DNA of 64,000 bases from Bugulina stolonifera (Eukaryota; Bryozoa; Gymnolaemata; Cheilostomatida; Bugulidae). Of the stretch, positions 11,241 to 50,979 are shown piece by piece. Within the stretch, counting starts at the first letter, position 1; each line of letters begins with the position of its first letter. The notes under the pieces were generated by a model, which saw only the letters and a list, made by a program, of their open reading frames with translations, did not search any database and was not told the origin of the DNA. Location of the stretch: assembly GCA_935421135.1 (NCBI GenBank), contig OW285187.1, forward strand, positions 14,595,929-14,659,928. Reading direction: 5' to 3'. Position numbers and translations under genes: made by a program.

Positions 11241-12288
11241 TAATATTAATATACTATAATTATAATTAACATTTACATTAACATAACATCACAAACATAA
11301 CTAAAAGCCATAAATTTTTAAATAAATAAAAATAAAATAATTAAAAACGGACTGTTCTGAAAATTTCAGAGTTCATCATAACAACGTATTCGCTTTATAA
11401 AAATCGGCTGTTATTATGGGTGTCCTGTGTCACGTCACAAAATAAATTTACAAAGGAGAAACAAACAATAAACATGAAAAGTGTCCCTGCTTTGCAAATA
11501 ATTAGAGAAAATAAAAAAGTTATTATCCTTGACCTTGAATTCGTGTGACGTTGTTTCTCTAAAGGGCGTCAAAAGGAGTCACCCAGCTTTATGCAAAGCG
11601 GATACAGAACCTAGGGTACAACTGGCTATGTAGCTAAAGTTCGCTATTCCTATCGATGGAACATAGTGTCTGTACGACAAGAATACGATAGGATCTATAA
11701 AACTTGTGTAAAATGCGCTTGCGCGATGGTTACCCGTGACAACTAGGTTACTGAAAACTCATTTTTCAATAGTGATACAGTCACTGTGCTGAATTAGAAT
11801 AATCCCGGATTCAGACATTTTAAACTCTTAACAACTGCTAAGGTAAATTGTGTTTGCAATATACGGCAAATTTCTATAGTTCTCATTATTTTATCTAGTG
11901 TTTCAATGTTTTACAATCATAAATATCATGTGAAATAATTCAGTGATTACTGATCGGACTAACAGTACACTTGACTTCTGAATCAATCGACTAAAAGTGC
12001 TTCCAGGACAACTTATTATTCTATATTTTTATAATTATGACTGCTAAATGTAAGAATTGATAGAAAATGTAACTTTTCTAATAATTATATTCTCATTTTT
12101 TTACATACATATTAGAGCACAAATAATGTAACATTGAAAATTGACAGAATAGACTGTGCCTTGTCAAACTAGAATAATTTTAGTCGGGATCAGAAATTGC
12201 GCATCTGGAATATATAGTTTAAGGTGGCAATACTTTGTGCAATCTGCAAGTGAAATATGGTTATGTTTTATGTTGCAGTTCGGCCAAT
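11241..12288. other. Upstream region of CFAP57
   Basis: AT-rich, no gene. TTGCAG at 12275-12280, just before the CFAP57 ATG, could be a splice acceptor, implying a non-coding first exon upstream. No promoter element is convincing. Confidence 0.4.
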
Positions 12289-27335: not shown

Positions 27336-30300
27336 TTACATTGTAATGTCTGTATTACAATATTCATCTGCTATTGTAACGTTTTCCACATAGGTGATTG
27401 GTGGAGAAACACTTTCACCTACATTCCGAGGTGCTGGTTTAGGAGCCTTACTAATGTTCACACTGCCAGACGCTGACTTAGTGCTCTGTGTAGCTACCTG
27501 TATGTCTGTGTTTGCATAGAGATGCTCCATGGCTAAATTGTCCTCCTCAATGGCCACTGCGGCAGCAGCTGCTGTTGACGTACTGTCATCATGCACTTCA
27601 GAACCATCCAGAGTTTCTACTACCGTCTTGTGGTAGGGTATAGGTTGTTCATACTGAAGGTCATATGGAGGTGAAGCAGTAACATTCACCAAATAGCTGG
27701 CAGTTGTCGGTGTTGGACTTGTTGGTAGATTTCTTTGAGACAATATAGGGTCTACTGCAGGGGCTCTGTGCTGTGGAGGGAGTGAAGCATTCTGGGAAGG
27801 CTGCTGTGATTGGACATTCATTGTGTACATGTTGTTAGTAGAAGCTCTGTTGAGCGCACCCTTTTCTGTAAATGGTTTCAGGTTGTCTGGTTTACCTTTG
27901 AATCTCATGTTTGCCATTTCGTTATCTATATAACAATAAACATACAGTATGCGTTACTGTACTGTTACTAGGGCTGGAACGAATCCAAAATTTTTCGAAT
28001 CTGACGATTCCGATTCCTGACACCATGCAGATTCTCGATTCCGATTCCTAAACGATTCCGCGTGGAATTACTCGTTTTAACAAATTCAATATCTTTTGTC
28101 ACCAAATAAACCATGTAATCAAATTGTATAAGCATATTTCATCTGCTATTCACTGTTAGTTTGTAGATGAGGACATTGATGAATGGCTACTGATGTACAG
28201 CTCAGCTTCAACCTGTATTTTTTATTAATAATGAAATAATTTTATAAATAATTGCTACAAAAAATAACAAAAAATTTACAATGTTGGATTCGAAACTGAG
28301 CATTTTGGAACCGAGATTCGGAACCGTGCCTAAGGATTCGGAATCGGATCCGGATCCGTGGATTTGTCACAGCCTTAACTGTTACTGTACGAAATAACAC
28401 TTTTTTCTTGCAATGACCAGTTATTATCCGCTTATACCTGAAGCACATATAGTTCGAATTGAGGGGTTTATTCACAGCTGAATAAGAAGACTTGTTAGCT
28501 GCTGTTCCGAGAGTTGTCTTCACTTACTACCTGATAGTGAATGGTTTTTATCAATGGATTTTCTAGTGCTGTACCCTTACTATATTGCAATAAGCAACAT
28601 AGAGAGATACAGAGCCATTTATTGGGTACGGCTCTGGAGAGATAGTATAGTTACGTCATATTCCTCAGAATAGGCTACAAAGTAGCTTAGTTCTCTCCCA
28701 AGCCAATAAACTGTATGTGTGGTTCAAATACTTTTTTAACAAATTTTGCTTATGTTGATGAAACAGTTGATCAGAAATAACACAGAACTTTTATTACTCG
28801 GACGTTATATGATATTTCCAAGTACCTGCAGGTATGCGTCGTCTGTGAGTTCTATGGAGATAGCAGAGACATCCTATAACAGCACAGAGTATTATTATTC
28901 CACATGGTAGTAGAATATACAGGAGGAGAAGAGGATCCTGTCCTGGTGCTTCTGTAGAGGTGGTGGTGGCTACAGTTGTGGTTGTGGTGCATTCCCCGTA
29001 GACAGCTGCAATACAATGGCAGTTTGCCTGTTATGTACTATTTGTACAGAAAAAAAGTTTACTTGGAACATATTTTAATAAATGTTGCAGAACGGAATTT
29101 TTAAAGAATAGCAATCACATCTTTCCTAAACAAGCAGAATGCTCGAAAATGGAAATAAAAAAAACACTCATAGTAAGCAATAACACCATGTGGACCATCT
29201 AATTATTTAATAGAACCATCTGGGACTAGTTATGGTTGTAAACAATTTTAAACTTCAGTGTCTACCAGCATTTGTTTGGTTATTTTTACACCACGGTTCA
29301 GTACTTGGAAACCTAGCTTGGTGGAAGGTGGAAGGCGGAAACGCGCATATACTGTTGGCTACATATAACCCTATATTTAGAACTATTAAACATCATGATG
29401 GCATGTATCCAAAATGCGAAAACGCATATTAGGAAGTTCTGTTACTATAGAAAATAAAAAATCAATCACAAAACACTACCTACTAGCATTACTAAATACT
29501 AATATGTAATCACACATGTATAACAAAATATAAAATAATAATATGATATGAATGTATATGAATATTATATAAATGTAATATATCTATTTATACATGAGTA
29601 ATCACTGCGTGATTATTGAACATTGAACATTATTCAATTTGTGGTATATAATAAAACCCAAAGGCTGCAACCAAGAATGCCATTGGTTAGCATCACGTTA
29701 GCGCTACATCCAAGATGGAGAGGAGGAATGGGAAGGAATTCCAGTCTCAAACATTCCTCTTCTGATATATAAGACTCAATTGAATTAATTTATGACAAAC
29801 TACACAGTACAATGATTCATATAATTCTCTATTTCATATAACATACATTGTATATAATTATGTTAAAACACCAGGACATTACTACACTGATTGCAGACTG
29901 CCACAATCAGGAAACTTTTTCAAATACATCTTCTGAAATTGCAAAATGATTACAAAATAGTTCAGACAGAAAAGTCAAACTCGTGAAGTTATTCCTTTGA
30001 TTGCGAAGTTGTTTATTAAAATGCTGGAAGGCATTTCTCAAAATAATATTGAAATGTCTACTGTTGACCCAGAGTTCTTCATGGATTTGGTGCAGTACCA
30101 CTCGATAACTTGACATTCGCAATTACTTGACAGTTCTCGGTACACTTGCATAATATTTTAACTAATTACATAACTTATACATGTACCTTACCTCATGTAT
30201 GCATAAGTAGCTCACACCAATTAATGTATGTAGTATTTCTAGAACCTACCTTAAACAGGTATATACATGTACATGCATATCTGAATCAAGTTCCACTATA

Positions 30301-33300
30301 ATTCTAGAGGGACTAGTTACCAACATTATTATGTGTACATTCTAACTACATTGTACTTGTTTAATATCATCACCTGTTGCCTGTCTGACTAGAAAGACTG
30401 ACCATACTTTAGTCTATTGTACCTAGCGTCAAACTTTTTGATAATTATATTGTATATATACATATATATAGTGTGCTCTTTTAACAAATAAAGTGCATGT
30501 AATACTAGTCTGGGCCTTTTTACACCGATAGTGATACAGCCCAGCCCAGTTGCACCTACCACAGTTCAGAGGCGGGTTAATTTGGTATAAATAGAGCTCC
30601 ATTTCTTGTTATTTTTCAGTCTACTTCTACACTAGCAATACAGTAAGAGCTCTCTACTTATACATGTAGCTACTGGGTACTTATATTACTGACTAGGAGC
30701 CTTCAGTCGAGTTCCGCTTAGGTACTAATACTTTGGACCCCCTCGACCAGTTAAGAAATTATAATAACAGCTTGGATCTGACAAAGTGATGTCAGCTCTC
30801 TCACTTGTGTCAGAGTATTCATATAATACATGTGAATCTTGTACAATAGTCTACAAAATACCACTCTGGATGTCTTACCACAGCTCTTTACCATTCTGAA
30901 GCCCTGCCTAACAGCCTAATGTCTATGCTCAGTATTTAATACTCACTTTTACAGCCGCAAGTGTCCTCAAGTTCCGCAAAGAAAACATCAATATCTCTTC
31001 TTCCTTCCTCCCAGGCACAAGATCTTATCCCAAACACATGCATTCGAGCGTAGTCGGCACACCGGAGGTATTCATAGTCCTCACCCAACCTCCTTTGTCT
31101 CCCAGCCAAGCACCCGTCTTCATACCTATTCTGATACACCTTCACACACTCTGTAGCACAGGCTAAATCACTCGTACAATTCTTATAGTCTGGGTCTAAA
31201 ATAAGTTTAAAATTTGTTATGAGACTGAGAGAAGAATTACATGGATTTCACCATCACACGATGATTGTAATTGTAGCCCCTCCTCTCCCTCCTCCCTTTA
31301 TGTCAAGTTCCAATTCAAAGCAGAGATTGCCACGGAACTAGCGACCTGTGATGCCAGTTGACTTGAATGACAGAACAATTGCCAATAGTGCTAATTTTAG
31401 CTTCATAAACGCCTACATGTAAGCTGTCGGTAAAATCTCTTGTCTAAAAGATTTCTGGATTATGGGCTCTTTACCAGCTGTCACCTTTCTATGTTTTTTT
31501 TAAATAATTAATTAATAATTATTGTAATTACATATTTTCTAAACTTCCTTAATGTTTAGACCTGCCTTGTTGATGTACATGTATATCACGGTGGATGTAC
31601 GTGAGACCTATATTGAGACCTAAATTGTACATTCACTTGTATACGTACATGTATCTGCATGCTGTGTGTTATGTATATGTAGATTGTACTCAATTAATAT
31701 AATAATTTATACAATATACAATATAATAAACGTACATTCATATATTCATTTATACCATAGTTGTAGTAGTGTACATGACTTGCATATTATTTCCTGGTAT
31801 AATGTACAGCACAGAATGTACTACACGTACATCTACATGTATATGTGACCCAGGAAAGAAATTCTAGTATAAATAAACACTTTCTGTTGAAGTAGGTGGT
31901 AATTGCTGTGTGTGGGCTCCGTGGGAGTGACAATCACTTCACAGTTCACACAAGGCATTGAATGTATGCGTAGCAGAAATTGTTACATAGTTTATCCTTT
32001 CAGAGCCGATTGAAACCTCTCATAGCATACAAATATCTCTATAATATATCCTCTATATACATCTTGCATGTATGTTGTACATCATAATTATACATGTACA
32101 TGTATATGTAATGTATGTGTATAAAGGTTACCTGATACAAAGTTTCTGCAGTCATCAAAGTAGCCCTCAGATATTCTATATGGTCCGCAGAAGAAGCCTC
32201 TTATTGGGTCAGTGACGCAGCCATCTTCCGGCCTAATCTAAACAATGAAATCATATTCTAATAAACATAAAATTGGACACGACATCTGGTTAGCCTTAGC
32301 GCATGACACACGACATCTGTTTAGCCTTAGTCCATGAGACTAAAGTAGAACTACATTGTACATAGCAGACGCTAAGGTTCTAATACAATGCCATCTTCCG
32401 GCCTAATCTAAACAATGAAATCATATTCTAATAAACATAAAATTGGACACGACATCTGGTTAGCCTTAGCGCATGACACACGACATCTGTTTAGCCTTAG
32501 TCCATGAGACTAAAGTAGAACTACATTGTACATAGCAGACGCTAAGGTTCTAATACAATGTAATATTATGTTGAACGCCAGCATACTCTAATGTGTAGAC
32601 TGACAACGTATGCCAATCAGTGACAATAGCGATGATACATATTCAAATATCAGTTCATATTGTGACCCCTTCTGTCAGAATCGGACATCGAGAGGTCCAT
32701 AAAATCATAGCAAGGCCAATTTTAATCAGCAGATATGTCCTACTTCTAACCAATTCACATGCTCATTAGTAGGAACACACACAATAAAGATAACAAATTG
32801 TCAGTGCTATCAAAAATTACTTCATGTAAATCGTGTATGATTAGTGGTTAAAGTTGAACTTTACAAAATAATAACGCTTGGCCTTCCCGATGTCTGATTC
32901 TGATAGCAGGGATCACATATTATATACTTGTTTTTATTACTGTGAGAGATGACGGCTGACAAAGTAGTTTGTCATGTTCAGGTCAGCAAAGGTAAGTTTC
33001 CAAAATGTCGGTTTGTTTAGGAAATGTACATGTTCATGTCTGCCTACCTGCGCTAGAATGAATTCCTACTTGAAGCAAATTGAAACTGAGATAGTATTTC
33101 TTGAAACTAAATTCGGGGTTTGTACAGTGTATTATACATAACCAAGTAAGAAGTAACCGTAGTAAGTGAATTTATGTGTTTTGGAACTAGGTCATTTTCA
33201 AGCATGGTCATGTTTCCTCTTGTATAGTACTGGTTTAGGTAAGTGTACTCTCGAATTGTCCCAACCAGCTATTGATTAGAGTGAATGGTAGTGAACAACC

Positions 33301-34603
33301 TAGATTTCAAATCGCTTATTCGTGTTGCCCGGTGCACCTGTTTCCATGGCTGGCACTAGTGGCAGAAGGGCATTCTTCTAGCCAATGCTTTCCAGTCTCC
33401 TTGCGGCGATCTTTATTTCAAGAAACACCATGTGCTTCTTTAATGAAATAACACAGAAATTCGATTACTATACTCATACATACCAGTGTTAAACAGTTGA
33501 GACATCTTGCTGATGCATGGCCATCTGCAACTGTAAAATACATGTACATTGTATGACACTACTGCACATGTAGCATACGACACTACACAGTTAGCATACG
33601 ACACTACACAGTTAGCATACGGCACTACACAGTTAGCATACGACACTACGTAGTCAGCATATGAAAAACCTAGAGACAAGCACTTATAGTTATTTGTGAA
33701 TTTAGGCTACTAGATAGTAAAAACAACTCATTGATATTATACATTATGATTTGATTGCATCCATGTATGTATACGCTTATTTATATGTGTGTAAATCAGA
33801 CATGGGCACTCGAGTCATTTTACTCGACTCAAGTTAACTCAAGCAACAGCTTTTCATTACTTTTAATTGACTTGTGCTTTTGTATTGTGTGAAAGCTGGG
33901 AATTGACTTTTACTTCTACTCTCCTACAAAGCATGATGCTTGACTCTTACTTTACTCTAATCTCTCAGCTATCAATGATAATTCTATTGGTTTGGTGTAA
34001 TTATGTAATAAGTCTTGTCCACCATAGAGAAGCTGAGAGGCTTATAGATAAACAGACCTACCACTATAACAAGTGCAAATTTAAAGTAGCCTGTGTTCCT
34101 CAGAATTACTATAACTGACAGAAAATCGGATCTAACACTAAGTATTACCTATTGTGTGTTGTCACACTTGTATACATCAGAAATTTGTGTTATACAAAAT
34201 TCCCATTGGTATTCTCTTTGACATACCGCTGTACTTTTGACTCTACTCTGACTCTAGCATTTTGGCACTAGTTGCTTGACTCTTACTTTACTTTTCAAAA
34301 TGGCTGTTTATTTACTCTTACTCTACTTTTGAATTGCTTCATCCGATGAGTTGACTCTAAATTACTTTTTATCAATTGGGAATATATACTCTTACTTGAC
34401 TCTTGACTTGAGTATTTGTCTGCTTGGCACATGTCTGGTGTAAATGTAATAATTGAATAGAAATATCATTCTATACTAAACCACTATAAAATATACTATA
34501 GAATATACATGTAATAGTATTATGACAGAGTATGTAGCTAGTAATACGACTTACTTTGGAAGTAAATGAATAGAATCCCAGCACATAGAATCTGTCTCAA
34601 CAT
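27336..34603 (-). CDS. Gene A: membrane-anchored i-type lysozyme-like protein with signalling tail
   Basis: Six exons (34555-34603, 33484-33530, 32132-32237, 30947-31195, 28826-29005, 27336-27925; phases 1-0-1-1-1) give 406 aa. Residues 1-16 are a hydrophobic signal peptide. Residues 26-150 match the i-type lysozyme/destabilase pattern: CLNCL, PEDGC, FCGPYRIS, DDC, CATECVKVYQNRY, and CADYARMHVFGIRSC. E36 and D42 sit at or near the catalytic Glu and Asp positions. The loop between C39 and C49 is shorter than in typical family members and lacks one Cys. A Thr-rich stalk (157-170) leads to a transmembrane helix (about 176-200). The 206-residue tail has YLVN, LYANT, the PxPxPR motif PKPAPR (372-377), ITYVEN (Y389) and EYCNT (Y399). 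i-type lysozymes hydrolyse peptidoglycan, and some also cleave isopeptide bonds. Whether A is active is unknown. Exon 3's acceptor lies in a 170-bp tandem duplication. Confidence 0.86.
27969..28377. mobile_element. hAT-type MITE, 409 bp, with perfect 8-bp target duplication
   Basis: Terminal inverted repeats TAGGGCTGGAACGAATCCA and (reverse complement of the right end) TAAGGCTGTGACAAATCCAC, flanked by ACTGTTAC at 27961-27968 and 28378-28385. An 8-bp duplication and T/CAGGG-type ends are hAT hallmarks. The interior is rich in GATTCCGATTCC-like sequence with no coding capacity. It lies in the last intron of gene A. Confidence 0.9.
28610..28636. mobile_element. 27-bp hAT-like insertion with perfect 8-bp target duplication
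   Basis: CAGAGCC and GGCTCTG are inverted ends around 13 bp. GAGAGATA flanks it directly on both sides (28602-28609 and 28637-28644). It lies in the last intron of gene A. It looks like a terminal-repeat-only insertion of the hAT type. Confidence 0.75.
32220..32559. repeat. Perfect 170-bp tandem duplication over the exon 3 acceptor of gene A
   Basis: Positions 32220-32389 and 32390-32559 appear identical base for base. Each copy holds the splice acceptor and first bases of exon 3 (32132-32237). The second acceptor copy, at about 32407, is followed by only a fragment of the exon. Inside each copy a 31-bp unit containing ACGACATCTG(G/T)TTAGCCTTAG is itself repeated. Confidence 0.97.
33570..33661. 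repeat. 21-bp tandem repeat, about 4 copies
   Basis: Period 21 bp, unit ACAGTTAGCATACGACACTAC, in intron 2 of gene A just inside the exon 2 donor. Because 21 is a multiple of three, it creates a spurious open frame on the minus strand. Confidence 0.9.
33797..34437. mobile_element. hAT-type MITE, 641 bp, with perfect 8-bp target duplication
   Basis: Inverted ends CAGACATGGGCA and (reverse complement of the right end) CAGACATGTGCCA. The 8-bp direct repeat GTGTAAAT sits at 33789-33796 and 34438-34445. The interior is rich in ACTC/GAGT repeats, with no transposase. It lies in intron 1 of gene A. Confidence 0.88.
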
Positions 34604-35147
34604 CCTGCTTATTACTACTGATAACACAAGTTCGCAGGGTGACTGTCACTATTGAATTATGTGTACTATATTAGCTGTACTGTAATATAATGTGCAATAA
34701 TAACAGATAATACTAACAGTTATACTGGTATTACTACATACAGACTATGATATTATTATGAGGAAGACAGATAAGACTGGTAGTGGTGCAGATGTAAGCT
34801 GGAATGTGAACAAACTGTGTGATATATGACAACATCACATTACATGATGCTATTTATGTTTACTTCACAAACAGTTTGGCAGTAACCATGGCAACTGAAT
34901 ATTTAATAATAATTGCCTTGTGATTTATGACTTTATTATTTTATAGGATTTTATCAAGTTTTAGATTAGTTTGTATATTGTTCAATCTTTATAATATAAT
35001 TTGGTATAATTATTTAGACAGCACATATGTATAAGTGCCTAGGTGTGGTGTAACAGTTGTAATGTATCTATGCCCATTCCATATTTCATAGCATATAAAT
35101 GATCCGTTTTTTGTAGCGAAAGCTGAACACAAAAACAAGACTCTGTT

Positions 35148-35390
35148 GATAGGCTAGGGTTAGTGAGTTGACCAATAATGTCGATGAGCTAGGGTTAGTG
35201 AGATGACCAGTAATGTCGATGAGCTAGGGCTAGTGAGTTGACCAGTAATGTCGATGAGCTAGGGCTAGTGAGTTGACCAGTAATGTCGATGAGCTAGGGC
35301 TAGTGAGTTGACCAGTAATGTCGATGAGCTAGGGCTAGTGAGTTGACCAGTAATGTCGATGAGCTAGGGCTAGTGAGTTGACCAGTAATG
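35148..35390. repeat. 35-bp minisatellite, about 7 copies
   Basis: Near-perfect tandem copies of a 35-bp unit beginning GATGAGCTAGGGCTAGTGAG, between the starts of genes A and B. The first copies carry small differences; the later ones are identical. Confidence 0.95.
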
Positions 35391-36000
35391 CTTTTGGTCT
35401 AAGTGGGGTGGGCATCTTGACACCTTAGTGCTTTAGTATGACAGTTTGCTAATACACCACCATTTTACTACAGGAAAATGCGTCCACCATAACTATTTCT
35501 ATTTAAATCAATCTTTTACTTTTTGGATAAACATTAGCAATAATTACTAGTATTGATTCTATTAGACAGCAACTATTTAGCTGTCACATTTATAGAGTTG
35601 TCTTTCTATAATAGTCGTGTCTTCAAATAGTTTTTAACTGTGGTGGCAGTTCAGCTGTTAGCAGGGAGGTCTAGGCAATAAGAAAATTTGGATTATTTCC
35701 AAGTTGTCAAAAGAGGCAAATATCTTAGGTTGACGTTTCTCTGACTAGGTGGTATGATGGCAGACTATTACCTTGACCAGCATTGGTGGCATTAACATTC
35801 ACTAAATGTGTGATAAGAAACTTTTTATATGTTATAATGTAGTGAATACTTTGCAAATCTTCAAAAATGAGAGTTGTCTTCTCTTCATTTTGTAAGTTGT
35901 CCGCTCTTACTCCCGACCTCGACCTCAACATACAGACGTTTCTTAGCACTTGTTTAGTAACTGATAATTCCTGAGCATTGGTACGATGTCCATTACTAAC

Positions 36001-36059
36001 ACAGTAGGGTTGATGTATATGTGGTGTTACTAACACCACATATACATCAACCCTACTGT
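36001..36059. repeat. Perfect palindrome, 29-bp arms, 1-bp spacer
   Basis: Positions 36001-36029 are the exact reverse complement of 36031-36059, around C36030. TACTAACA occurs at 35994-36001 and again at 36028-36035, so an 8-bp direct repeat brackets the 26-bp segment 36002-36027. Confidence 0.95.
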
Positions 36060-36445
36060 AAATACAAAGGGAAAACAACTCCCTACTTTTAACACTGCTT
36101 TTGTTCCTATGATTGTGTCAGTATACCAAATAATATAATATCACACCATGGAGCACTTTTAAAAGTGCAATGAACCTTGACACTATAACCCCACTTAAAT
36201 TTGCTATCCCACCCTCAATTTCTCCTGAGTCCTGAGACTAATTTTTACTACAATCTGATTCACATTCAGTTACCATGGAAACCTATGACATACATAGAAA
36301 ATATTTTTAGTTTTCAAATGGCCACCTCTCTTCCTGGTAGCATTCCTAGTAACGTAAGAATAACATTGTCATATATAATAGTGAAAATGATCATTATACA
36401 GCTAGCTGCATTAAAACCAGGACTAGCATTAGACGGATTCCAAAT

Positions 36446-39400
36446 ATGAAACGCATGTATTTACAGATATTCATCTCTGGACTACTGATCTTCATCAACT
36501 GTAAAGGTACGTTTCTGTATGGATATGCTACAAATTAATGTGGGATAATATTGTAGGTGTACACAATATAGCTTCTGTAGTAATATGTACTGTAGTAGTA
36601 AACAGCAATAAAAGAGTATGCACTTGTGGTTATCTAATGAGTGCCAAAGTGGAGAAACTTAAAATAGCCTTTATTCTTTGCCAAAACTAGAGCAGGAGAA
36701 GTCATCTTCTCTACATATCATTAATTGACCCAAACAAAAACCGCAGACAAGGATCTAAGGCTACCAAAACTTCTCTACTACTGCACAGAACATCATCTTT
36801 TAGCACAATGATTATGACTGTAAGTTATATTCTTGCAATATCAAAGTGTAAGTTTTTAAGTAACGAAGAGTAAAGATATTATACTACAGGTTCACATGCT
36901 TTCAGATGTAAGCGCATTCACCTACAGGAAAGTTCTTTTCCTGAAGGATTAGAAAGTGTTGGATTAACTGCTGATTGTTACAAAGAAGTTCTGTACATAT
37001 TCATTCTGGGGCAATAATCTTATGTCCCCCATAATCTCTGTTGTTAGAGTTAATACAGATGGACTCTGTTTATTTGTAGTTGTTAACGGGTCTGCTTCCG
37101 TAAGCTGTTTGGACTGTTTGACCAAGGTAGGTGGGAGCAGAGCCGTTTATTGTGACATAAACGGCTCTGGGTAGGAGGTGAGATCTCAGGCTAGGTCTAT
37201 GCTATTTAGTGGGGGCCAAAAGTGGACACCCTGATGGACAGGGAATCTTATTCCCTTCTTTGATTAGATTCATTGGAGCCCCGACTGGTTTTGATACGTT
37301 ATTATAGTGGGAGTGTGCAGTGAGATAATATGTATATGACATAAAATTTTGCATGTGTTTGGTCTACATGATAAACTAGCAGGAGAATGTTTTTAATAAA
37401 TATTTTCGAAAATCTGCCCCTTCTTATTTATATTCCTCTAAGAGTTGCACCACGGCTTTATCATAGGTCCAGTTTTGATTGCTGCAGATCTTATTAATTA
37501 TTATTGTATTACAGATCCAGCCAGAAGATGGTTGTGTTGTTGACCCCATAAGAGGCCTATTCTGTGGACCATACAGAATATCTCAAGCTTTCTTTGAGGA
37601 CTGTAAGAACTTTGTACCAGGTAATAAGAGAGCAATTGATAATAATAATGACATCACTTCCTTCTACTGATAGGTACTTCCTAAAATGGAAGACAATTTG
37701 CTACTACTTGATTCATATTAAAATAAATAGATAAAATAGATAAATCTGACTAATACTACACTAGTAGTATGACGATATAAACCGGGGTGGAAAGTTGAAT
37801 CAGGACTTTTGTTTGACTTATCTTGAGTGATTGCCGAAAATTCAATCAATATGGCGTCTATTTTGAATGTCTTGAATATTCTGTAATCGAAAAAATGATT
37901 TCTTCAATTTGTAGATCCAGATTTTAAGAACTGCTCAAGCGATCTATCCTGTGCTACAGAATGTGTCAAAGCATGGCAGGAGAGGTTTGAGGGAAGATGT
38001 TTAGTTGGGAGACGAGTAGCTATTGGAGAAGACTACGGTGCCTTGCGCTGCGCCGATTATGCTAGAATGCACGTGTTTGGCTCGAGGTCATGTGGTCAAG
38101 ACGATACTCCAGCGATTCTACAAAAGCTTTCTACCCTTGAGAAGTCTTGTGGTTGCGACAGTAAGTGCTGTGTAAAATACATGAAGTTGTGTAGTCCTAC
38201 AGTCACCCGAGCAGGAGTAAGATGTCCCGTGTTTTAGGCAGGTGCCGGACAAAACGAGCATTGTGAATAATGAAGCTGAACTAATTTTAAGACGAGGGTA
38301 GCAACAGGTACAGACGATATTTATTGTAGGTTGTGTAGCACTACTGGGATCGTCTTCATAACGTATTAACCTATTCTGGAAAATCTGGGCAGCTAATGTA
38401 CAATACATGTACATTACACAGTCATGTAAATAATTACTAGAGCGTACAGGTTCACTGTATAATTCGTGTTTTTATTGTCACGTGTATTTGGTATAGCATA
38501 ATAAGGAATGTGAGGAACTTCAAATAGACAGGTTTGGCAACAGGTATACATCTTCTACAACACATGTTATCTTCAGTTTGATTTTGTCAACAATTTACAG
38601 ATAGGAGGAATGTGTTACAAACAACACAAGATAATTGAACTCATATTGATGGATACAACATAATTATAATGACAATATTAATTTTAATGTACAATATAGA
38701 TGATCAATTACAGAGAGGGGGGGGGGAGCTTCACCCTGAGATTCGGTTTTGAATTTATCTGCTGGTAGCCAACACACAACAGGGATGTCTATTATTAGCT
38801 CAGATTGACACACAGAATGACAAACAGGGTTACACTTTAGGGAAGTGTAGTACTAGTACATTGTGTACTTAAACTTAGCACCATTCACCAAGGATTAGTA
38901 ATGGTTTAACAGTGGATTAGTGCTTGCTCTTATGTTTGTGGTCCTTGCAGTAAATAACAAAAATGCAGTGTAGCAGTAATTGTCCACTCTGGAATTACTC
39001 ACTTTATTCCATTTAGTGATTATTAGCCCAATTAGAGCTCTTAGGTTGGAAAACCCTGGGAAAACCTTACCAATGTGCTACTTGACGTTTCACCCAGGAG
39101 GCCTCCCTTGGAGTTGCACCTTTACAGAACTATCAAACCTCTCTCAACTGCTCCCCCAGGAGGCAGCTGCTATCATTTCATGTAACTGTAGGTCTTTGTT
39201 AGTGATTGGGTCAACTGGGCTGGGGTGACACCATGTGAGGCAGAAAGTAACTGTTCATATCTGGAATTTCACTGAAGAACTCTGGCTATGTCAAAACCAT
39301 GTACAATTAGACCTACATGTGCCTCTTATGATTATGTTGCAGCGTTGTATGGACAGGGGAAGTCGTGTCCCACTACCACAGTTGTACCGGCCAACAATGC

Positions 39401-40577
39401 ACCAGCCGCCAAGAACAAGTCACTTCTGCTTCTCTATATCCTCTTACCGTGTGGAATAGCAATCATCTGTGCAGTAGCAGTGTGTATCTGCTTTATATAC
39501 AGGACTCGACGTACTGGTCGCCATGAAGGTATGCCTGGTTAAACTTGCTTAGAATATTTGGTAGTTTTTAATCTTGCTGGAGCAGCAATTGAAGCAGACT
39601 ATATTGTCAACTTACTCCCTGGAGTTGTTAAAATTGTTTGTACCTGTTACCTGCTTAAAAGCTCACAATACTGACAACATAAAATGATAAATAACTAAAT
39701 TAAAATATTATCTCTAGCTAATACTACTAATAGCCAATGATATGCATTATTACAAGTGTGTAAATTGTGGCAGATGCAATAAATGTAATTATATAATCAT
39801 GTATCAGCTGACAGTTATAGGTATAGCATAAATAAAATAATAAATAAAAATACTTAGTTATAATTATTTGTAAATAAAATGCACATGATATAATGGGTTA
39901 GTATACAATATACGTACAATATTGTACACATTATAAGCCAATGTTACCTCGTCCTCGGCTATTTTTAGTATAAAACTATGATACAAAATGGTGTAATATG
40001 CTGGATGATCTCACTTCAGCTGTATCCATGGCAAACATGATATGAATATAGATCATATAATACCAATGTAGATCATTTTGAGTATCTCACTATCTATCCA
40101 ATTATAATATATATTGGTGTAGCATTGAAGACGCATGTATTTCTCTTTGTAGAAGACGAGACAGCCCACAGGTTAAAAGCTAAGCAGAATGATAGGGGTA
40201 CCAGAGCGGCCATTGACACACCAGCTGCCATGTACACTGTGGGTGCTCAACCCCGAAATCCTTCACTGCCATCCAACCCAGCGCCTTTACCTCCCCAATA
40301 TAAGAGCTACAACATAGACCCTGGTGTTTGGTCTCCGAATAATCTACCAACCAGTCCAACTTCTTCTGCTGCCTACCTGGTCAATAGTACAGCTCCACCT
40401 CTGTTTGATCCACCATATGAAAAACCAATCAGCACACAAACACCAGTACCATCAGACAAACCCAAAGTAAAGGCACCGAAACCAGTTCCGAGGAAAGAAG
40501 CTCGAGGAATTAAACCACCAATCACATATGTCGAAGATGCAGAGTTAGCAGACAATCAATATGCTAATAAGTTGTGA
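36446..40577 (+). CDS. Gene B: membrane-anchored i-type lysozyme-like protein with signalling tail
   Basis: Paralogue of A. Six exons (36446-36506, 37080-37126, 37515-37620, 37915-38160, 39343-39528, 40153-40577) with the same phases give 356 aa. The signal peptide is residues 1-20. The lysozyme-like domain (30-153) has CLDCL, PEDGC with E40 and D46 at the catalytic places, FCGPYRIS, CATECVKAWQERF and CADYARMHVFGSRSC. A short stalk leads to a transmembrane helix (about 181-205) containing LLLLYILLPCGIA, nearly identical to A. The 151-residue tail conserves LPTSPT, YLVN, PKPVPR (324-329), PPITYVED (Y341) and ends QYANKL (Y352). Exons 2 and 3 have exactly the same lengths as in A (47 and 106 bp), indicating an origin by gene duplication. 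It is transcribed away from A. Confidence 0.88.
37138..37169. mobile_element. 32-bp CAGAGCCGTTTAT hairpin insertion beside the exon 2 donor of gene B
   Basis: The arms CAGAGCCGTTTAT and ATAAACGGCTCTG enclose 6 bp. The flanking octamers are GGTGGGAG (37130-37137) and GGTAGGAG (37170-37177), a 7/8 target duplication. The insertion starts 11 bp after the exon 2/intron junction. Confidence 0.65.
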
Positions 40578-42500: not shown

Positions 42501-44530
42501 TAACTGGTAGCGGCTAGCTGGTAGCGGCTAGCTGGTAGCGGCTAGCTGGTAGCGGTAGTAACTGGTAGCGGTAGTAACTGGTAGCGGTAGTAACTGGTAG
42601 CGGTAGTAACTGGTAGCGGTAGTAACTGGTAGCGGTAGTAACTGGTAGCGGTAGTAACTGGTAGCGGTAGTAACTGGTAGCGGTAGTAACTGGTAGCGGT
42701 AGTAACTGGTAGCGGTAGTAACTGGTAGCGGTAGTAACTGGTAGCGGTAGTAACTGGTAGCGGTAGTAACTGGTAGCGGTAGTAACTGGTAGCGGTAGTA
42801 ACTGGTAGCGGTAGTAACTGGTAGCGGTAGTAACTGGTAGCGGTAGTAACTGGTAGCGGTAGTAACTGGTAGCGGTAGTAACTGGTAGCGGTAGTAACTG
42901 GTAGCGGTAGTAACTGGTAGCGGTAGTAACTGGTAGCGGTAGTAACTGGTAGCGGTAGTAACTGGTAGCGGTAGTAACTGGTAGCGGTAGTAACTGGTAG
43001 CGGTAGTAACTGGTAGCGGTAGTAACTGGTAGCGGTAGTAACTGGTAGCGGTAGTAACTGGTAGCGGTAGTAACTGGTAGCGGTAGTAACTGGTAGCGGT
43101 AGTAACTGGTAGCGGTAGTAACTGGTAGCGGTAGTAACTGGTAGCGGTAGTAACTGGTAGCGGTAGTAACTGGTAGCGGTAGTAACTGGTAGCGGTAGTA
43201 ACTGGTAGCGGTAGTAACTGGTAGCGGTAGTAACTGGTAGCGGTAGTAACTGGTAGCGGTAGTAACTGGTAGCGGTAGTAACTGGTAGCGGTAGTAACTG
43301 GTAGCGGTAGTAACTGGTAGCGGTAGTAACTGGTAGCGGTAGTAACTGGTAGCGGTAGTAACTGGTAGCGGTAGTAACTGGTAGCGGTAGTAACTGGTAG
43401 CGGTAGTAACTGGTAGCGGTAGTAACTGGTAGCGGTAGTAACTGGTAGCGGTAGTAACTGGTAGCGGTAGTAACTGGTAGCGGTAGTAACTGGTAGCGGT
43501 AGTAACTGGTAGCGGTAGTAACTGGTAGCGGTAGTAACTGGTAGCGGTAGTAACTGGTAGCGGTAGTAACTGGTAGCGGTAGTAACTGGTAGCGGTAGTA
43601 ACTGGTAGCGGTAGTAACTGGTAGCGGTAGTAACTGGTAGCGGTAGTAACTGGTAGCGGTAGTAACTGGTAGCGGTAGTAACTGGTAGCGGTAGTAACTG
43701 GTAGCGGTAGTAACTGGTAGCGGTAGTAACTGGTAGCGGTAGTAACTGGTAGCGGTAGTAACTGGTAGCGGTAGTAACTGGTAGCGGTAGTAACTGGTAG
43801 CGGTAGTAACTGGTAGCGGTAGTAACTGGTAACGGTAGTAACTGGTAACGGTAGTAACTGGTAACGGTAGTAACTGCTAACGGTAGTAACTGCTAACGGT
43901 AGTAACTGCTAACGGTAGTAACTGCTAACGGTAGTAACTGCTAACGGTAGTAACTGCTAACGGTAGTAACTGCTAACGGTAGTAACTGCTAACGGTAGTA
44001 ACTGCTAACGGTAGTAACTGCTAACGGTAGTAACTGCTAACGGTAGTAACTGCTAACGGTAGTAACTGCTAACGGTAGTAACTGCTAACGGTAGTAACTG
44101 CTAACGGTAGTAACTGCTAACGGTAGTAACTGCTAACGGTAGTAACTGCTAACGGTAGTAACTGCTAACGGTAGTAACTGCTAACGGTAGTAACTGCTAA
44201 CGGTAGTAACTGCTAACGGTAGTAACTGCTAACGGTAGTAACTGCTAACGGTAGTAACTGCTAACTGGTAACTGCTAACTGGTAACTGCTAACTGGTAAC
44301 TGCTAACTGGTAACTGCTAACTGGTAACTGCTAACTGGTAACTGCTAACTGGTAACTGCTAACTGGTAACTGCTAACTGGTAACTGCTAACTGGTAACTG
44401 CTAACTGGTAACTGCTAACTGGTAACTGCTAACTGGTAACTGCTAACTGGTAACTGCTAACTGGTAACTGCTAACTGGTAACTGCTAACTGGTAACTGCT
44501 AACTGGTAACTACTAACTGGTAACTACTAA
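42501..44530. repeat. 2 kb minisatellite with stepwise unit change (14, 16, 16, 14 bp)
   Basis: Starts with three copies of CTGGTAGCGGCTAG (14 bp), then about 80 near-identical 16-bp units GGTAGCGGTAGTAACT to about 43827. Three GGTAACGGTAGTAACT units follow, then about 24 units GCTAACGGTAGTAACT (43876-44257). About 18 units of TAACTGGTAACTGC (14 bp) end the array near 44510. It lies between the 3' ends of genes B and C. Confidence 0.98.
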
Positions 44531-45557
44531 TTAGGTTTAAATAGTAATGTACATTATGGATTCCGACATTCGCATTTGGAAATTGTATTACTAGATTGGA
44601 AGTTGCTGCATTCAGGTTTATGTGAGCTATTACTAATAAGTAGTAATTGTAGAGTCAAAACATTTTACACTATTTGTAAAATTTATCAGCAAATTGAAAT
44701 CTATGGTTGAGCTAGAAAACAACAATACTGCAGTATGTTTTAATGAATGCCGTTTTACTTTATTGTTTATGTTGAAAAGTGTTACATATATAATGTACAT
44801 TTCGATGCAAAATATTTGTAAATACCTACAGCGCAAAAAGTTAATATTTATATTACAGCTATGAGTGCTGTGATATCTAGAATATACATATAAAAATGCT
44901 CTTTATGCATGATTTCTGCCTTTAGAATCTAAAATTATAAAAATAATATAGTTAAACAACTTTACATGCACAATATAATGTACGAGTAATATATAAATAT
45001 AATCTCTATTTACATAGTTTTCTTATAGTGTTGAGAACAGATACAATCAGCGTAGTAAAGGGTGAAACCTTAGAATGATATTTAGCTCATATATATAATG
45101 GTGAAAATCGTGACAAGAAGCTAAAGCAATTGAGGTAAAGCCTGAATGATTGTCTCTATAATCTATCCTGCAGGTAAATTTTCATCTATTTGCGCATATT
45201 GCATTGCAAAAGCATTACTATAAATCTTCTACACCATCATTAGCATGTTGATTGCGAAAGCTTTGGCTCACCACTTTTTTATCACCTAAAATATTATCAA
45301 GATTCGCTTTGAGTGAATGAAAATGTTTTGATATGAGCTTGTTTCAATGTTTATTTGTTTTGAACAACGTTATGGTATGTCTACATTGGGCAAATAGAAT
45401 TTAATCTTAAACATGATCAACCAGATCACTCACAGTTACCCTGTTTAATCATACCTAGAAGGTTGTAGGCGAGTACAAATTATAATCAAACCACACTATG
45501 AAGTTGTTCTCTCTATGTGGACACAACTTCTCTATTTAGTTTACATTCTAAGCTTAC

Positions 45558-48500
45558 CTGAATGAGCAATCAACCCTCTAGATTTCCTGTGAGTGCAGTA
45601 GACTGCCAATGCTATAGTCACGATTATTATTACTATAGCGGTCAGTGAAACGCCCACAATGGCACCGATATACCTTTGGCTATTAGCAGGTGGCAGTGGA
45701 TCATCAAGTGGGTCACCCGTTCCTTGAATCACTAGACAATTCTCCCGACTCTCGTGAATAGCTAAAACATAATAGCATACAACGTCTACCTACTTGTTGG
45801 AATATTTGTGTCAATTCATTTGTAAAATACAGAAGTTATCCTCACTGTGACCTATATTTCATTTGGATATTTTAGGGCAGACATCTTTGAGTTTTTTTAT
45901 ACTGCTTCTGTTACTATTACCCGAGTGTTGCAAGGTTTAATTAAAGGCTGCAACGTGGAAATTCAGCACCCTAACCGCTAGGCCATGGCTGCTCCATAGG
46001 TGAAACAGAGATGGTACCTTTATTGAAACAAATTTGGAGTTTTCTCACCCTGAGACATGAGCAAAAATATCTCAATAACAGGATATAGCCAACCCACTGT
46101 TATGATCAATCCAACTAATATTTAGGCCTATATATTTTTTGTGGTTTTCATATTTTTACTCTAAATTTAAGGCAAGACAATCTCAAACTGGTAGCACTGT
46201 CATCTAAAGTGGTTAGACATTGGAGAGTCCTGGCAAATGAGGATATGACTTAGAGGAGTTTGGAATGTAATGAACCGCAGTCATGAATGCCACGGCTAAA
46301 GGTGAAACATACCGAGCAGGGAGTTGTTCCTACAATTCAAGTACAAGCAAGTTATGTATAGAAAGAGCGAAGGTGTACAGGCCCAACAATCAGGGGGCGA
46401 GATGGGCATTATTTGCCTCCCCAGAAATCTGTTAACACACAAATATTTGTTGGATTGAACTTTGAGTACATTGATCACAAATATATGGCCAGTGTTATAG
46501 TCTGAAAGACAGTGTAAGCAGCCTGTGATCCTGCGTATTTGTTTGAATTGGATAGAGTCTAGAGAACTTTTAGCATCGGTCTGGACAATCCCTACATGTA
46601 TACTCTGATCTGGGCTTTTTGCCCCCTCAGCCAAAAATAGTTGTTACAGTGCTGATGGTGGGAATAAAAGTAATTGCCAGTTATATTGAAATGTATGTAG
46701 TGGGAGTTTGAGAGAAAGAATGTTGTTTCATTACAAGGTAACATACATACAAATTGGGAGAGGACAACTTCCAGCTGTGTAGCATCAAAAGCCTAGATTA
46801 TTTATAATGCTAAATTGAATAACACCAATATGACTTGCATGTGACCTGTATAGCAACATCACAGTGTACATGCTATATCTATACATACATGTACATATAT
46901 GTATATTATTGTAACAAGGAAGCCTACAGTGATTCAGCCGATCTGTGGAAACTATTATTGTAAAATGTCCAAAATATTAATGTCCACACTGAGACATGAG
47001 TATAATGGAATGTGGTAGGAGAGGGAAATTTTGTGTTAGATTGACTGCCAGTTTTTCCAGAGTTCCTCATTCAAATATGGGAATATGGACGCTCAGGTAT
47101 GGAGTAAGAGGCAAATACTACATACATGTACATGCACATGTACTCTACCAAACCCTAACTATAGCAAATACTACATACATGTACATGTACTCTACCAAAT
47201 ACTTACTATGGGAAATACTACGTGTGCTCTACCAAACACGTAGAATCATTTTAGTAGAGTACTGTAGTGCATTATGCAACCGTGTTTCCATGGAAACCAA
47301 TAAACATTCTATAAGATGTTTATCAATAACTGATGGGACAGAGTTTTCCCAAATCCCAAGCGTTGACTCACTTTGACAGCCACAGAGTAGTGACATGTTT
47401 GTGATGATCTCAGTGGGCACCTGCTCCTTCTGTCCACAACTAAGAGGACCTACGAAATGTATCTGTCCATAGTCTGCACATGTCAAGTCTTTAACATCCC
47501 TCATAGAGTCGATACAACTCTCTCCGTAATGATTGTGGTAAGCTCTCACACATTCTCTACTGCAATCCTCATCTTTATAGCACTCTTCCCATGTGTCCCA
47601 CTCATCTATACACAACACACAGGACAGTATACACACAACATGTAGTTTAGATACATTATACCATTGGTTTTCGTCAGACTCTCCTGTCTATAGTCAGTCT
47701 GCCTACAGGGTGCCTGCTGGGCACCTGAAGGGCACTTGCTGGGCACCTGGCAGGTTATGTTTCCACTCAGCAGGTCCACTCCAAACTTTTGAAATAAACC
47801 TGTGGTGACATGCCAGTCATAGGCTGATGAAGATTGATAAGCCATAGACTCTCAAGCTAACACCGAAGGTTTCCACCGCCAGGCATAGGTTGATCGGTTC
47901 ACCCCTGGGTCAAAACTTGCTAACCGGAAACCAAGCTTTAACACGACAATTGAGGAAATAAAAGAAGGAAACAAACTACATGACTGTGTAGTGGTAATGT
48001 GTCACTCGCATATAAATTAGCATTTATTAATATTGCAGTTTACATAGCCATTGAATGATAATGGCATCGGAGGCCTGGTGCGCGAGTACCTATAGCAACA
48101 CTCTGTCAATAATATAGTTAGTTTATAGTATGACATCACATATGTTTAAATTTGGATATTTACCAATAACAAATGCTATTACATTGAGAAACTAGACCAC
48201 AAATACTATGATTATGTTCTGGTATAACCTATAATAGTCCTATACTTGAGGGCAACAAAATTATAACTTACCAGTAAAGTTGGTGTACTTGCTGCAGTCC
48301 TGATAGAATGAGATGGTCATTTTAAAAGGTCCACATTGTTCAGAGTCAACAAGTGAGGGATGGGGTATACATTCCTCATCTGGAGAGGGCTGGACCTGTG
48401 AGTAACATACTCCACAGTGTACAAGGTATACATGTATATATAATACACCAGTTATGTTTCAGACTACCAAGTTTTTTCACTCAGGATCAAAGCAAGTTAT

Positions 48501-50979
48501 AAATTATACATGTACATAATTCTTTACATGTACATAACAACAACTGTAACCCACAGAAGATAATTTGAGAGAATTCAGATTAGTAGACGCTATGAATAAT
48601 AACGCTGGCCGTTAGCCGCAATATGCTTACTAAGGAACTATGGTTCTGCCTATACAAAATGCTCAGTGAATGTTATAATGGCGCAGGTGTTCAGCTAAAA
48701 CAAACATTTAGCATCAGTAGTTAGAAAGATGCAGGGTTTAGGGGCAGATGGTGATATTGGAGGTCTTAACTTGGAGAAAGTAAATTGTGTAGAAAAAGTC
48801 AGGTTTTAAAACATTTGTATACATAATATAGCATAGTTATGCAATTACTGCATAGTATTGTCTTGTGGTTAGAACTGTACAACTGCGCCGAGTGGGCTAA
48901 TCACCTCTATTGAGTACTTTGCTAGAAAACTTTCTATATGCATTAGCATTTGCTCAATCTGCTGCAGAGGAAGTTAGCCAACCAGAGTGTTGAGGAGATA
49001 AACCTGTAGCCTACCTATTGTAGACGAGTAGCAGGTCTGAAGAAACCTATTTTTTTTGGGTGGAAAATTTTGTGATCAGCAGTAAGTTGGCAGGGAATGG
49101 TAGAGTCATTCAGTACAGATGTTTTTATCAACACTCTTCCAATCGCGCAGTGAGCCCCACCCTCAATATCATACTGGTGCTCTCTCACACATGAAGTAAA
49201 GTAGTACATCTTTAATGGTCACCATTGATTTAGCTTCAAATAAATTTTTCATCTGACAAAGCGAACTAAACGCCTAGGGCATCCTTACTACCCTCTCCTC
49301 AACAATGTTTTGTAAGATCTGATACTCAAGCTACTTTTGATCATACCGTTCTACTGCCCATGTACCATCAACGACAGGTAAGTGCTATTTGATGTCCCTA
49401 CAAGTGGTTAGATATGGCTACTTGTGATAAGACAGTAGAATATCAACCATTGTTCCCCTATAAGCACATCGTTGAAGTAGCTGGAACATGGCAAGGAACC
49501 AACCTCTGTTCACATTATATGGTGGTTTAAAAATATGTACCTTATATATACTCACTGGTATGTTGGTAATACATGTAGGTACTCACGAATCTTAATCTTC
49601 AAATCATTTAGAAACGTCAAGTTAATACCAACTGCAATTTGTGAAGCTAATACCAGACATTTCGCACAGCTTGAAACATGAGTATCGGGTAGTGAGTGAT
49701 ATACAACAGCAGCAGGCAATGACATAAAGTAGTAGCGGGCATCATAAGATGCAAGTGCGCTAATGGTCAAATGTCAATACCCCATAATGGACAACGTAAG
49801 ATATTAGTGGACATTGAAAGATGGTAGCTTACCCGTTTTAGACAGTCAATGCAGATGTCAGATATTTCACGTACAACTCCATTGTCACACTCTAAAGAAA
49901 TGAATGGAATACAATACATTATTTGTACATGGAAATCATGCCTATTAGAACGTTGTCTTTTGAGCTATTAGTGTCTTCGCAACTTCTTGGCCTGGGTCGC
50001 AATTAAAAAACGCTAGATGGCTGCTCACCCTAGGCTGAAAGGGCGATTGACCCGGGATGTTGCTTGGTCGAATGAACCCATCCCCAGATCATCAACATAT
50101 CCAGGTTTCTCACAAAAAATAAGGATTTTACGTTTGGCTCAGGCCATTGTGTTCGGGACTCGGTGATGGGAGTGGGCTGGAAACTTCTCGAGCAAGTTGG
50201 CCTGTGGCTGAAATTATGTCGTGGAGACACTATACACATGTACATGTAATGTAATAATTACACTAGAGTGAGTACTGCTACTACTACTGCTACTACTACT
50301 ACTGCTGCTACTAGAGGGGATTAATCTTCAGATGTAACTAGTAGCTTACAGTTTTACTAACTTAGGTTACACGTACATGATTAGTGTCAGACATGACTCT
50401 GTAATGATGTGACAAGTACTTACAATATCCATGGATACATTCTGGCTTCTGGATATGAGAAGGGAATGAGGACATGTTCACCAATGTGGTCATCTCCTTC
50501 ACTGGTCAACACGTCCTTCATTCTCTTCTGGTGGTCATTTTAAATTACTTACTAACTGAAGATGGATTTCTCATCATATTGTATCAATTTTTTAGCATAT
50601 GCAAATGAAATATAATAGTCATTCAGTGTGAATAGCATAACATACTACATATAGTACATACATGTACATGTACATGGTGTTCAAGGTCACAATTTAATTT
50701 AAATTTTTCCGAAAGTTGATTGTGAACAAACTCCCAGATTCATAGCAAATTTCTGTTTGAGAAAGTTGAATTACAATGGATGTACCAAATGTGAATAGAA
50801 TAGATGTGGATACACAATACACATATTTTTATACCTCATTATAATCTTATACGAAACCCAGATTCTCAGATGTGTTGTTTGAATTGGAAGTCAGTAATAG
50901 CCTATCATATCAACTTACCAGTAAACTGAAGAAAGTAGACAGATAAGAGCCAAGCTGAGATCAGTTTATAGTTTGCCAT
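45558..50979 (-). CDS. Gene C: divergent membrane-anchored i-type lysozyme-like protein, tail not found
   Basis: Third paralogue. Five exons (50919-50979, 49833-49891, 48272-48395, 47372-47605, 45558-45761), with the same phases as A and B, give 227 residues plus one base. The signal peptide is 1-20. The lysozyme-like domain spans about 34-159: CIDCL, PDEEC, QCGPFKM, QDC, CSRECVRAYHNHYGESC and CADYGQIHFVGPLSC. The catalytic Glu position is Asp (D46) and the Asp position is not acidic, so it is probably not an active lysozyme. A stalk and a transmembrane helix (about 191-214) follow. Exon 5 ends at a GTAAGC donor, and a cytoplasmic tail exon was not found. An acceptor near 45173 would give an immediate stop, making a tail of about a dozen residues. 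Confidence 0.76.
45915..46002 (-). mobile_element. Degraded tRNA-derived SINE head
   Basis: Minus strand reads GGAGCAGCCATGGCCTAGCG then GTTAGGGTGCTG, a clear A box. The expected B box is decayed. It lies in the intron upstream of the gene C transmembrane exon. Confidence 0.45.
46374..46645 (-). mobile_element. Non-autonomous relative of the hAT element at 60673-62374
   Basis: About 270 bp in inverse orientation. On the minus strand it contains TAACAACTATTTTTGGCTGA near one end and a GCCCCCTGATTGTT-type other end, as in the large element. Its middle GACTATAACACTGGCC joins the sub-terminal parts of the large element directly. No clear target duplication. It lies in an intron of gene C. Confidence 0.65.
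47110..47240. repeat. Imperfect tandem repeat, about 3 copies of roughly 50-60 bp
   Basis: Copies of GCAAATACTACATACATGTA followed by CATG and CTCTACCAAA, in the intron after the large cysteine exon of gene C. Confidence 0.7.

Follow-up and report, generated by a model that had tools for sequence, protein, structure and literature searches.

Can the fold of an antibacterial enzyme be reused as a receptor at the surface of an animal cell? The question is raised by a cluster of three genes, here termed TLYZ1, TLYZ2 and TLYZ3, on chromosome 1 of the bryozoan Bugulina stolonifera, within a stretch of 64,000 nucleotides (14,595,929-14,659,928) that was analysed as a whole and is referred to as the window. 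i-type lysozymes are otherwise short secreted enzymes. TLYZ1-3 each join a lysozyme-like domain of this kind to a membrane helix, and the best reading of the sequences is that they belong to a family of pseudo-lysozyme receptors in bryozoans that also includes receptor tyrosine kinases. At least two bryozoans encode lysozyme-headed receptor tyrosine kinases, and the window genes are relatives without a kinase that have lost the catalytic glutamate.

Structure of the TLYZ genes

TLYZ1 (minus strand, 406 aa), TLYZ2 (plus strand, 356 aa) and TLYZ3 (minus strand, 249 aa) are intact genes of six exons each when spliced by hand from the sequence, and the cluster runs exactly from the final base of the TLYZ1 stop codon at 27336 to the first base of the TLYZ3 ATG at 50979. 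In all three the exons encode, in order, a signal-like segment, a short CLxCL segment, the active-site loop, the remaining lysozyme domain, a linker with the membrane helix and a tail; the frames are open, all introns are GT-AG and the intron phases (1,0,1,1,1) are identical. The N termini are hydrophobic and signal-like as judged by hydropathy only, which makes a cleavable signal peptide a candidate. The acceptor of TLYZ1 exon 3 and the first 18 bases of that exon are covered by a 170-bp tandem duplication (2.0 copies, 100% identical, window 32220-32560), and splicing at the additional acceptor would disrupt the reading frame.

The first-pass annotation of this DNA had proposed three lysozyme-like genes with one membrane helix each, and this stands, as all three splice open and encode a full Destabilase domain and a strong helix. 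The cysteine pattern that it described holds in part: PEDGC, CGPYRIS and CADYARMH occur in TLYZ1 and TLYZ2, whereas TLYZ3 has PDEEC, CGPFKM and CADYGQIH instead. The check that it suggested, a search of the hand-spliced proteins against the Pfam Destabilase profile (length 116, cut-off 26.2 bits), placed all three above the cut-off over nearly the whole profile: TLYZ1 at E 1.1e-14 (55.1 bits, positions 2-102), TLYZ2 at 3.4e-15 (56.7 bits, 3-106) and TLYZ3 at 1.4e-16 (61.2 bits, 3-105). Among solved structures TLYZ2 matched 8bbu (3.5e-9), 2dqa (1.2e-7) and 3ab6 (5.4e-7), and its four best matches were all i-type lysozyme sequences. No kinase domain was matched in TLYZ1-3 by Pfam up to E 1.

The best 19-residue hydropathy means (2.99 in TLYZ1, 2.88 in TLYZ2 and 2.85 in TLYZ3) mark one strong membrane helix in each protein. 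Positive residues, read from the spliced sequences, lie on the C-terminal side of the helix and therefore place the lysozyme domain outside the cell by the positive-inside rule. Genome-wide, TLYZ2 recovers the TLYZ1 membrane exon at 5.7e-10, in a match that includes about 34 bases of the intron and reads across one stop, and the TLYZ1 tail exon at 2.3e-9. The proportions of nonsynonymous and synonymous differences (pN, pS) between TLYZ1 and TLYZ2 are 0.25 and 0.74 in the ectodomain, 0.33 and 0.73 in the linker and helix, and 0.32 and 0.66 in the tail, and the differences are concentrated at third codon positions (p 2.0e-9 for the ectodomain, 2.4e-4 for the membrane exon and 9.8e-5 for the tail). 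These tests cover the TLYZ1/TLYZ2 pair, TLYZ3 having no partner close enough; the single-pass helix is found in all three proteins and conservation of the tail is established for TLYZ1 and TLYZ2 only. Judged from these sequences, the membrane-anchored lysozyme architecture of TLYZ1-3 is almost certainly real.

The Destabilase family in the genome

The genome scanned comprised 27 contigs and 234,951,659 bases (C1, C2, C3 and C7 denote chromosomes 1, 2, 3 and 7), about 31 kb shorter than the 30 scaffolds and 234,982,697 bp given in the published assembly report (PMC10213821). A scan with the Destabilase profile returned 14 exon-4 places, three of which are exon 4 of TLYZ1-3. At two of the 11 places outside the window (C3:20.52-20.54 Mb) the domain is followed by a membrane exon and then by tyrosine-kinase exons; these genes are termed LRTK1 and LRTK2.

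An early stop of the exon-4 frame after the last cysteine was rejected as a mark of secretion, because unspliced TLYZ1 and LRTK2 would also stop soon; in its place a control asked whether the domain is followed by a phase-1 donor and, within 3 kb, by a compatible hydrophobic exon. Over the 14 loci this control, whose thresholds were fixed after the receptors had been seen, was positive in all five receptor-type loci (TLYZ1-3, LRTK1 and LRTK2) and in none of the other nine, three of which have a possible phase-1 donor. The nine are presumably secreted-type genes. Loss of one cysteine pair was likewise rejected as a mark of receptors, as the CIC cysteine and the one that follows the Glu are missing from the secreted-type genes of this genome too.

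A phase-0 intron just before the residue preceding the catalytic Glu lies at the same position in TLYZ1-3 and in all nine loci outside the window in which exon 3 was found (seven secreted-type loci, LRTK1 and LRTK2; the end of exon 2 was located in eight of them), while exon 3 was looked for and not found in the secreted-type loci C7e and C2. By profile match and by shared gene structure, TLYZ1-3 are members of the i-type lysozyme family. In the best tree of the domains the six receptor-type domains lie on one side (support 82/90, or 89/87 after TLYZ3 and C7f were left out), a grouping read as neither shown nor rejected. The shared exon phases are the main reason for favouring a single origin of the membrane form.

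Lysozyme-headed tyrosine kinases

LRTK1 and LRTK2 are tandem genes on chromosome 3 (C3:20520338-20535796; loci L019 and L020). From the CLDC exon onwards each was spliced into ten coding exons that are open to the stop, and they share the exon order and intron phases of the TLYZ genes through the ectodomain and membrane exon. Both match the Pfam kinase (LRTK1 6.6e-81, LRTK2 7.3e-80) and Destabilase (4.7e-12 and 9.6e-12) profiles, and the kinase motifs GRGQFG, AVK, HRDIALRN and DFG are intact by reading. Each gene joins an ectodomain, a membrane helix and a complete kinase, as in a receptor tyrosine kinase, in a model from which the N-terminal exon is missing. Among solved single kinases MET is nearest to the LRTK1 kinase (about 5e-58); an EGFR entry ranks first at 1.6e-88, a value that adds up two stretches.

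A search with the ectodomain, helix and juxtamembrane region of LRTK1 (404 candidates) returned one protein, P0001 of the bryozoan Watersipora subatra, which is annotated but uncharacterised. P0001 carries the Destabilase domain, a membrane helix and a kinase in one annotated protein and so constitutes an independent gene model; sequence identity amounts to 52% for the ectodomain and 73% for the kinase. The active-site loop is longer in LRTK1/2 and P0001. The first-pass annotation had proposed looking for the same domain order in relatives, and this yielded the kinase form in W. subatra but, in word-based and length-limited searches, no TLYZ form outside B. stolonifera. A structure model of P0001 with six single-exon rows from the window was discarded (mean predicted local distance difference test score, pLDDT, 40.9; predicted template modelling score, pTM, 0.23; 20 of 598 residues at 70 or above).

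The two LRTK genes are 90-98% identical in DNA over kinase exons 6-9 and 58-70% over ectodomain exons 2-5, and the introns between hardly align. Synonymous divergence (dS) is 0.22 in the kinase versus 1.27 in the ectodomain, and the Watersipora ectodomain groups with that of LRTK1. The pattern suggests gene conversion that acted exon by exon on the kinase of old LRTK duplicates.

Active site

The muramidase dyad of destabilase is Glu34/Asp46, according to the published account (PMC10126035). In an alignment of 14 rows, including TLYZ1-3, LRTK1/2 and P0001 and anchored by the shared phase-0 intron, the catalytic Glu is replaced by Arg, Gln and Gln in TLYZ1, TLYZ2 and TLYZ3 and is present in all 11 other rows. 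Correspondingly, exon 3 starts with V/I-E in all nine loci outside the window where it was found and with other residues in TLYZ1-3 (Table 1). The Asp is kept in TLYZ1/2 and eight other rows, and is missing from TLYZ3, LRTK1/2 and P0001. The column of Ser51, the proposed isopeptidase serine, holds Phe, Phe and Gln in TLYZ1-3; none of the six receptor-type rows has Ser there, nor do the secreted-type genes C7d and C7f, and the His (His112 of the destabilase isopeptidase) is kept in all 14. None of TLYZ1-3 has the complete muramidase dyad or the pairing of Ser51 with His112 of a destabilase-type isopeptidase. The alignment makes it very probable that TLYZ1-3 are without muramidase activity, and they are most likely pseudo-enzymes because the catalytic Glu is replaced; the case is weaker for LRTK1/2 because that Glu is kept. 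Five secreted-type loci keep Glu, Asp and Ser51 (C3:13204417-13217016, C7:7349270 and C1:2237462; L009, L010, L012, L013), and the active-site loops of C7d and C7f are rebuilt.

Cytoplasmic tails

The tails of TLYZ1 and TLYZ2 are rich in tyrosine and proline and partly conserved, whereas that of TLYZ3 has about 29 residues (tyrosine counts in Table 1). Blocks common to TLYZ1 and TLYZ2 are YLVN, YE[QK]P, KAPKP[AV]PR, PPITYVE[ND] and a C-terminal Y[CA]N. We take Y-x-N to resemble Grb2 SH2 sites, Y-x-x-P Crk-type sites and P-x-x-x-P-R the SH3 sites of CIN85/CD2AP; the motifs suggest adaptor docking and nothing beyond it.

Genomic setting

The coordinates of the exons and of neighbouring features are collected in Table 1. 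Between TLYZ2 and TLYZ3 (window 42501-44530) lies about 2 kb of a short tandem repeat with a 16-bp unit in 110 copies, which grades into related units and yields three long chance open frames. A non-LTR (long terminal repeat) retrotransposon occupies 7357-11042 and comprises two long open reading frames (ORFs), one with a PHD finger and one with an endonuclease and reverse transcriptase.

Table 1. Exons of TLYZ1-3 and other features, in window coordinates
Feature	Position	Strand	Basis
TLYZ1 exon 1, ATG and hydrophobic signal-like segment (MLRQILCAGILFIYFQ)	34555..34603	-	scan for ATG, hydrophobic stretch and phase-1 donor; splicing
TLYZ1 exon 2, CLxCL segment of lysozyme domain	33484..33530	-	hand splicing
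TLYZ1 exon 3, active-site loop, starts I-R (secreted paralogs V/I-E)	32132..32237	-	splicing and alignment
TLYZ1 exon 4, remaining Destabilase domain	30947..31195	-	Pfam genome scan E 1.8e-5, exon alone; splicing
TLYZ1 exon 5, Thr-rich linker and membrane helix	28826..29005	-	splicing, hydropathy, TLYZ2 genome-wide match, donor/membrane-exon control
TLYZ1 exon 6, cytoplasmic tail, 8 tyrosines, stop 27336-27338	27336..27925	-	splicing
TLYZ2 exon 1, ATG and hydrophobic signal-like segment	36446..36506	+	splicing
TLYZ2 exon 2, CLxCL segment	37080..37126	+	splicing
TLYZ2 exon 3, active-site loop, starts I-Q	37515..37620	+	splicing and alignment
TLYZ2 exon 4, remaining Destabilase domain	37915..38160	+	Pfam genome scan E 4.9e-6; splicing
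TLYZ2 exon 5, linker and membrane helix	39343..39528	+	splicing, hydropathy, donor/membrane-exon control
TLYZ2 exon 6, cytoplasmic tail, 7 tyrosines, stop	40153..40577	+	splicing
TLYZ3 exon 1, ATG and hydrophobic signal-like segment	50919..50979	-	splicing
TLYZ3 exon 2, CIxCL segment	49833..49891	-	splicing
TLYZ3 exon 3, active-site loop, starts V-Q	48272..48395	-	splicing and alignment
TLYZ3 exon 4, remaining Destabilase domain	47372..47605	-	Pfam genome scan E 1.4e-7; splicing
TLYZ3 exon 5, linker and membrane helix	45558..45761	-	splicing, hydropathy, donor/membrane-exon control
TLYZ3 exon 6, short tail, 0 tyrosines, stop	45218..45285	-	splicing
Head-to-head interval, 1.8 kb, TLYZ1 start codon to TLYZ2 start codon; candidate promoter region	34604..36445	.	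gene-model coordinates
PX-domain protein gene	936-1826
Jagunal-like protein gene	2651-2929
WD40 protein gene, CFAP57-like	12223-12828		by eye
Kelch-repeat protein gene	55562-55852

Sensor, scaffold or enzyme

The first-pass annotation had offered, for TLYZ1-3, a cell-surface sensor or a tethered effector that would address bacterial wall fragments. The tyrosine kinase of the sister genes and the occurrence of the kinase form in a second bryozoan favour the sensor, whereas the effector, as an active enzyme, is weakened because the catalytic Glu is replaced in all three window genes. It is proposed that the i-type lysozyme ectodomain lost its catalytic acid and was retained as a binding module, whose groove would bind a glycan, fragments of peptidoglycan or chitin being natural candidates for the fold. 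Binding would cluster the receptors, LRTK or another kinase would phosphorylate tyrosines of the TLYZ1/2 tails and of the C-terminal part of LRTK, and SH2/SH3 adaptors would dock at these sites. TLYZ3 may act as a co-receptor or decoy, because its short tail has no tyrosine. By this account a bryozoan receptor system was built from an antibacterial enzyme: dead lysozyme ectodomains would sense microbial or chitin glycans, and two kinds of protein, lysozyme-headed receptor tyrosine kinases and co-receptors that have docking tails but no kinase, would signal by tyrosine phosphorylation; the probability of the whole is put at a little under 0.4. Its parts fare differently. The signalling-receptor step taken alone is quite likely, and that TLYZ1-3 are non-enzymatic signalling receptors, whatever the ligand, is likely; a microbial or chitin glycan as ligand has slightly less than an even chance.

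Several observations weigh against this account. A scan for the signal exons of the LRTK genes came up empty for LRTK1 and returned six candidates for LRTK2, all doubtful, and the start of P0001, read from the sequence, is without an evident signal peptide. LRTK1/2 keep the catalytic Glu, and some residual activity may persist in the window genes, as TLYZ1/2 keep the dyad Asp and TLYZ1-3 have other Glu or Asp residues nearby. Support for the receptor clade (82/90) is only moderate, and dS between TLYZ1 and TLYZ2 is near saturation. The tail motifs are short, and by eye neither an immunoreceptor tyrosine-based activation motif (ITAM) nor an inhibitory one (ITIM) was seen in the TLYZ tails. Homologs of TLYZ were found neither in a single-protein search of 1550 candidates (E 0.001) nor, P0001 apart, in a profile search of 3489 (E 0.01); the homolog searches were word-based and length-limited, which misses distant relatives, and other bryozoan genomes lay outside their scope.

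The alternative that survives best is that the proteins act at the cell surface as receptors of self or protein ligands, for instance in the allorecognition or the cell-cell signalling of a colonial animal, and that the lysozyme fold serves as a scaffold only. The receptor architecture would be the same as in the glycan-sensing account, the active-site loop is rebuilt and in LRTK1/2 and P0001 also longer, which could abolish sugar binding too, and the LRTK ectodomains are far more diverged than the kinase exons; but the His and the cysteine framework are kept, as expected for a retained groove, and this alternative is considered unlikely. A membrane-tethered antibacterial enzyme or agglutinin, which acts on or sticks to bacteria and whose tail merely anchors or sorts it, could also be released in secreted forms by read-through of exon 4, as the frame of unspliced TLYZ1 ends a few residues after the exon-4 donor (CGCKSEY). 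Such a role would suit the Asp of TLYZ1/2 and the brief tail of TLYZ3, yet it is hard to reconcile with the replacement of Glu and Ser51 in all three genes, the constrained, tyrosine-rich tails of TLYZ1/2 and the existence of kinase relatives, and it is judged improbable. That lysozyme and membrane exons belong to separate transcripts is scarcely credible: the second, frame-breaking acceptor of TLYZ1 exon 3 would allow for an artefact, but exon order, splice sites and phases agree in five of five receptor-type genes, the membrane and tail exons are under constraint and the independent Watersipora protein holds lysozyme domain, helix and kinase.

Relation to known systems

TLYZ1-3 resemble the i-type lysozymes and destabilase (PF05497, GH22i; Hirudo destabilase 8bbu, Tapes japonica 2dqa) in the full-length domain, the cysteine framework, a CGPY-like motif and the His, and differ by the replaced Glu and Ser51 and by the added membrane helix and cytoplasmic tail. 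The ectodomain of LRTK1/2 and P0001 is of the same family, but TLYZ1-3 have no kinase, while LRTK1/2 and P0001 keep the Glu. The ectodomain of MET consists of Sema, PSI and IPT domains; LRTK1 has a kinase near that of MET, and the LRTK ectodomain, unlike that of MET/RON-type receptors, is a lysozyme domain. Drosophila PGRP-LC and tobacco CHRK1 use wall-degrading enzyme folds without catalytic residues as receptor ectodomains, CHRK1 joining a chitinase-like domain to a kinase. TLYZ and LRTK share this logic, but the folds are unrelated (amidase and GH18) and the signalling parts and lineages are others.

The first-pass annotation knew of no membrane-anchored i-type branch, and none, whether transmembrane or tyrosine-kinase receptor, is described in the titles and abstracts of the open-licence papers that the searches listed, which is weak evidence of absence because open-licence papers alone were covered. 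A term search found no lysozyme-domain receptors in PMC11083476 and PMC4704728, "lysozyme" has no occurrence in a holozoan tyrosine-kinome survey (PMC8662651), and lysozyme, destabilase and tyrosine kinase have none in the main text of a study of zooid transcriptomes of B. stolonifera (PMC7534450).

Significance

In this bryozoan a lysozyme-like domain without its key catalytic residue sits at the cell surface, and in sister genes the domain is coupled to a tyrosine kinase. Together these features suggest the conversion of an antibacterial enzyme into a signalling receptor. If this is true, it would add to the PGRP receptors another case in which an animal made a sensor out of a wall-degrading enzyme, and microbe sensing would be tied directly to tyrosine-kinase signalling. 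The TLYZ and LRTK genes provide named genes for testing recognition in an under-studied colonial phylum.

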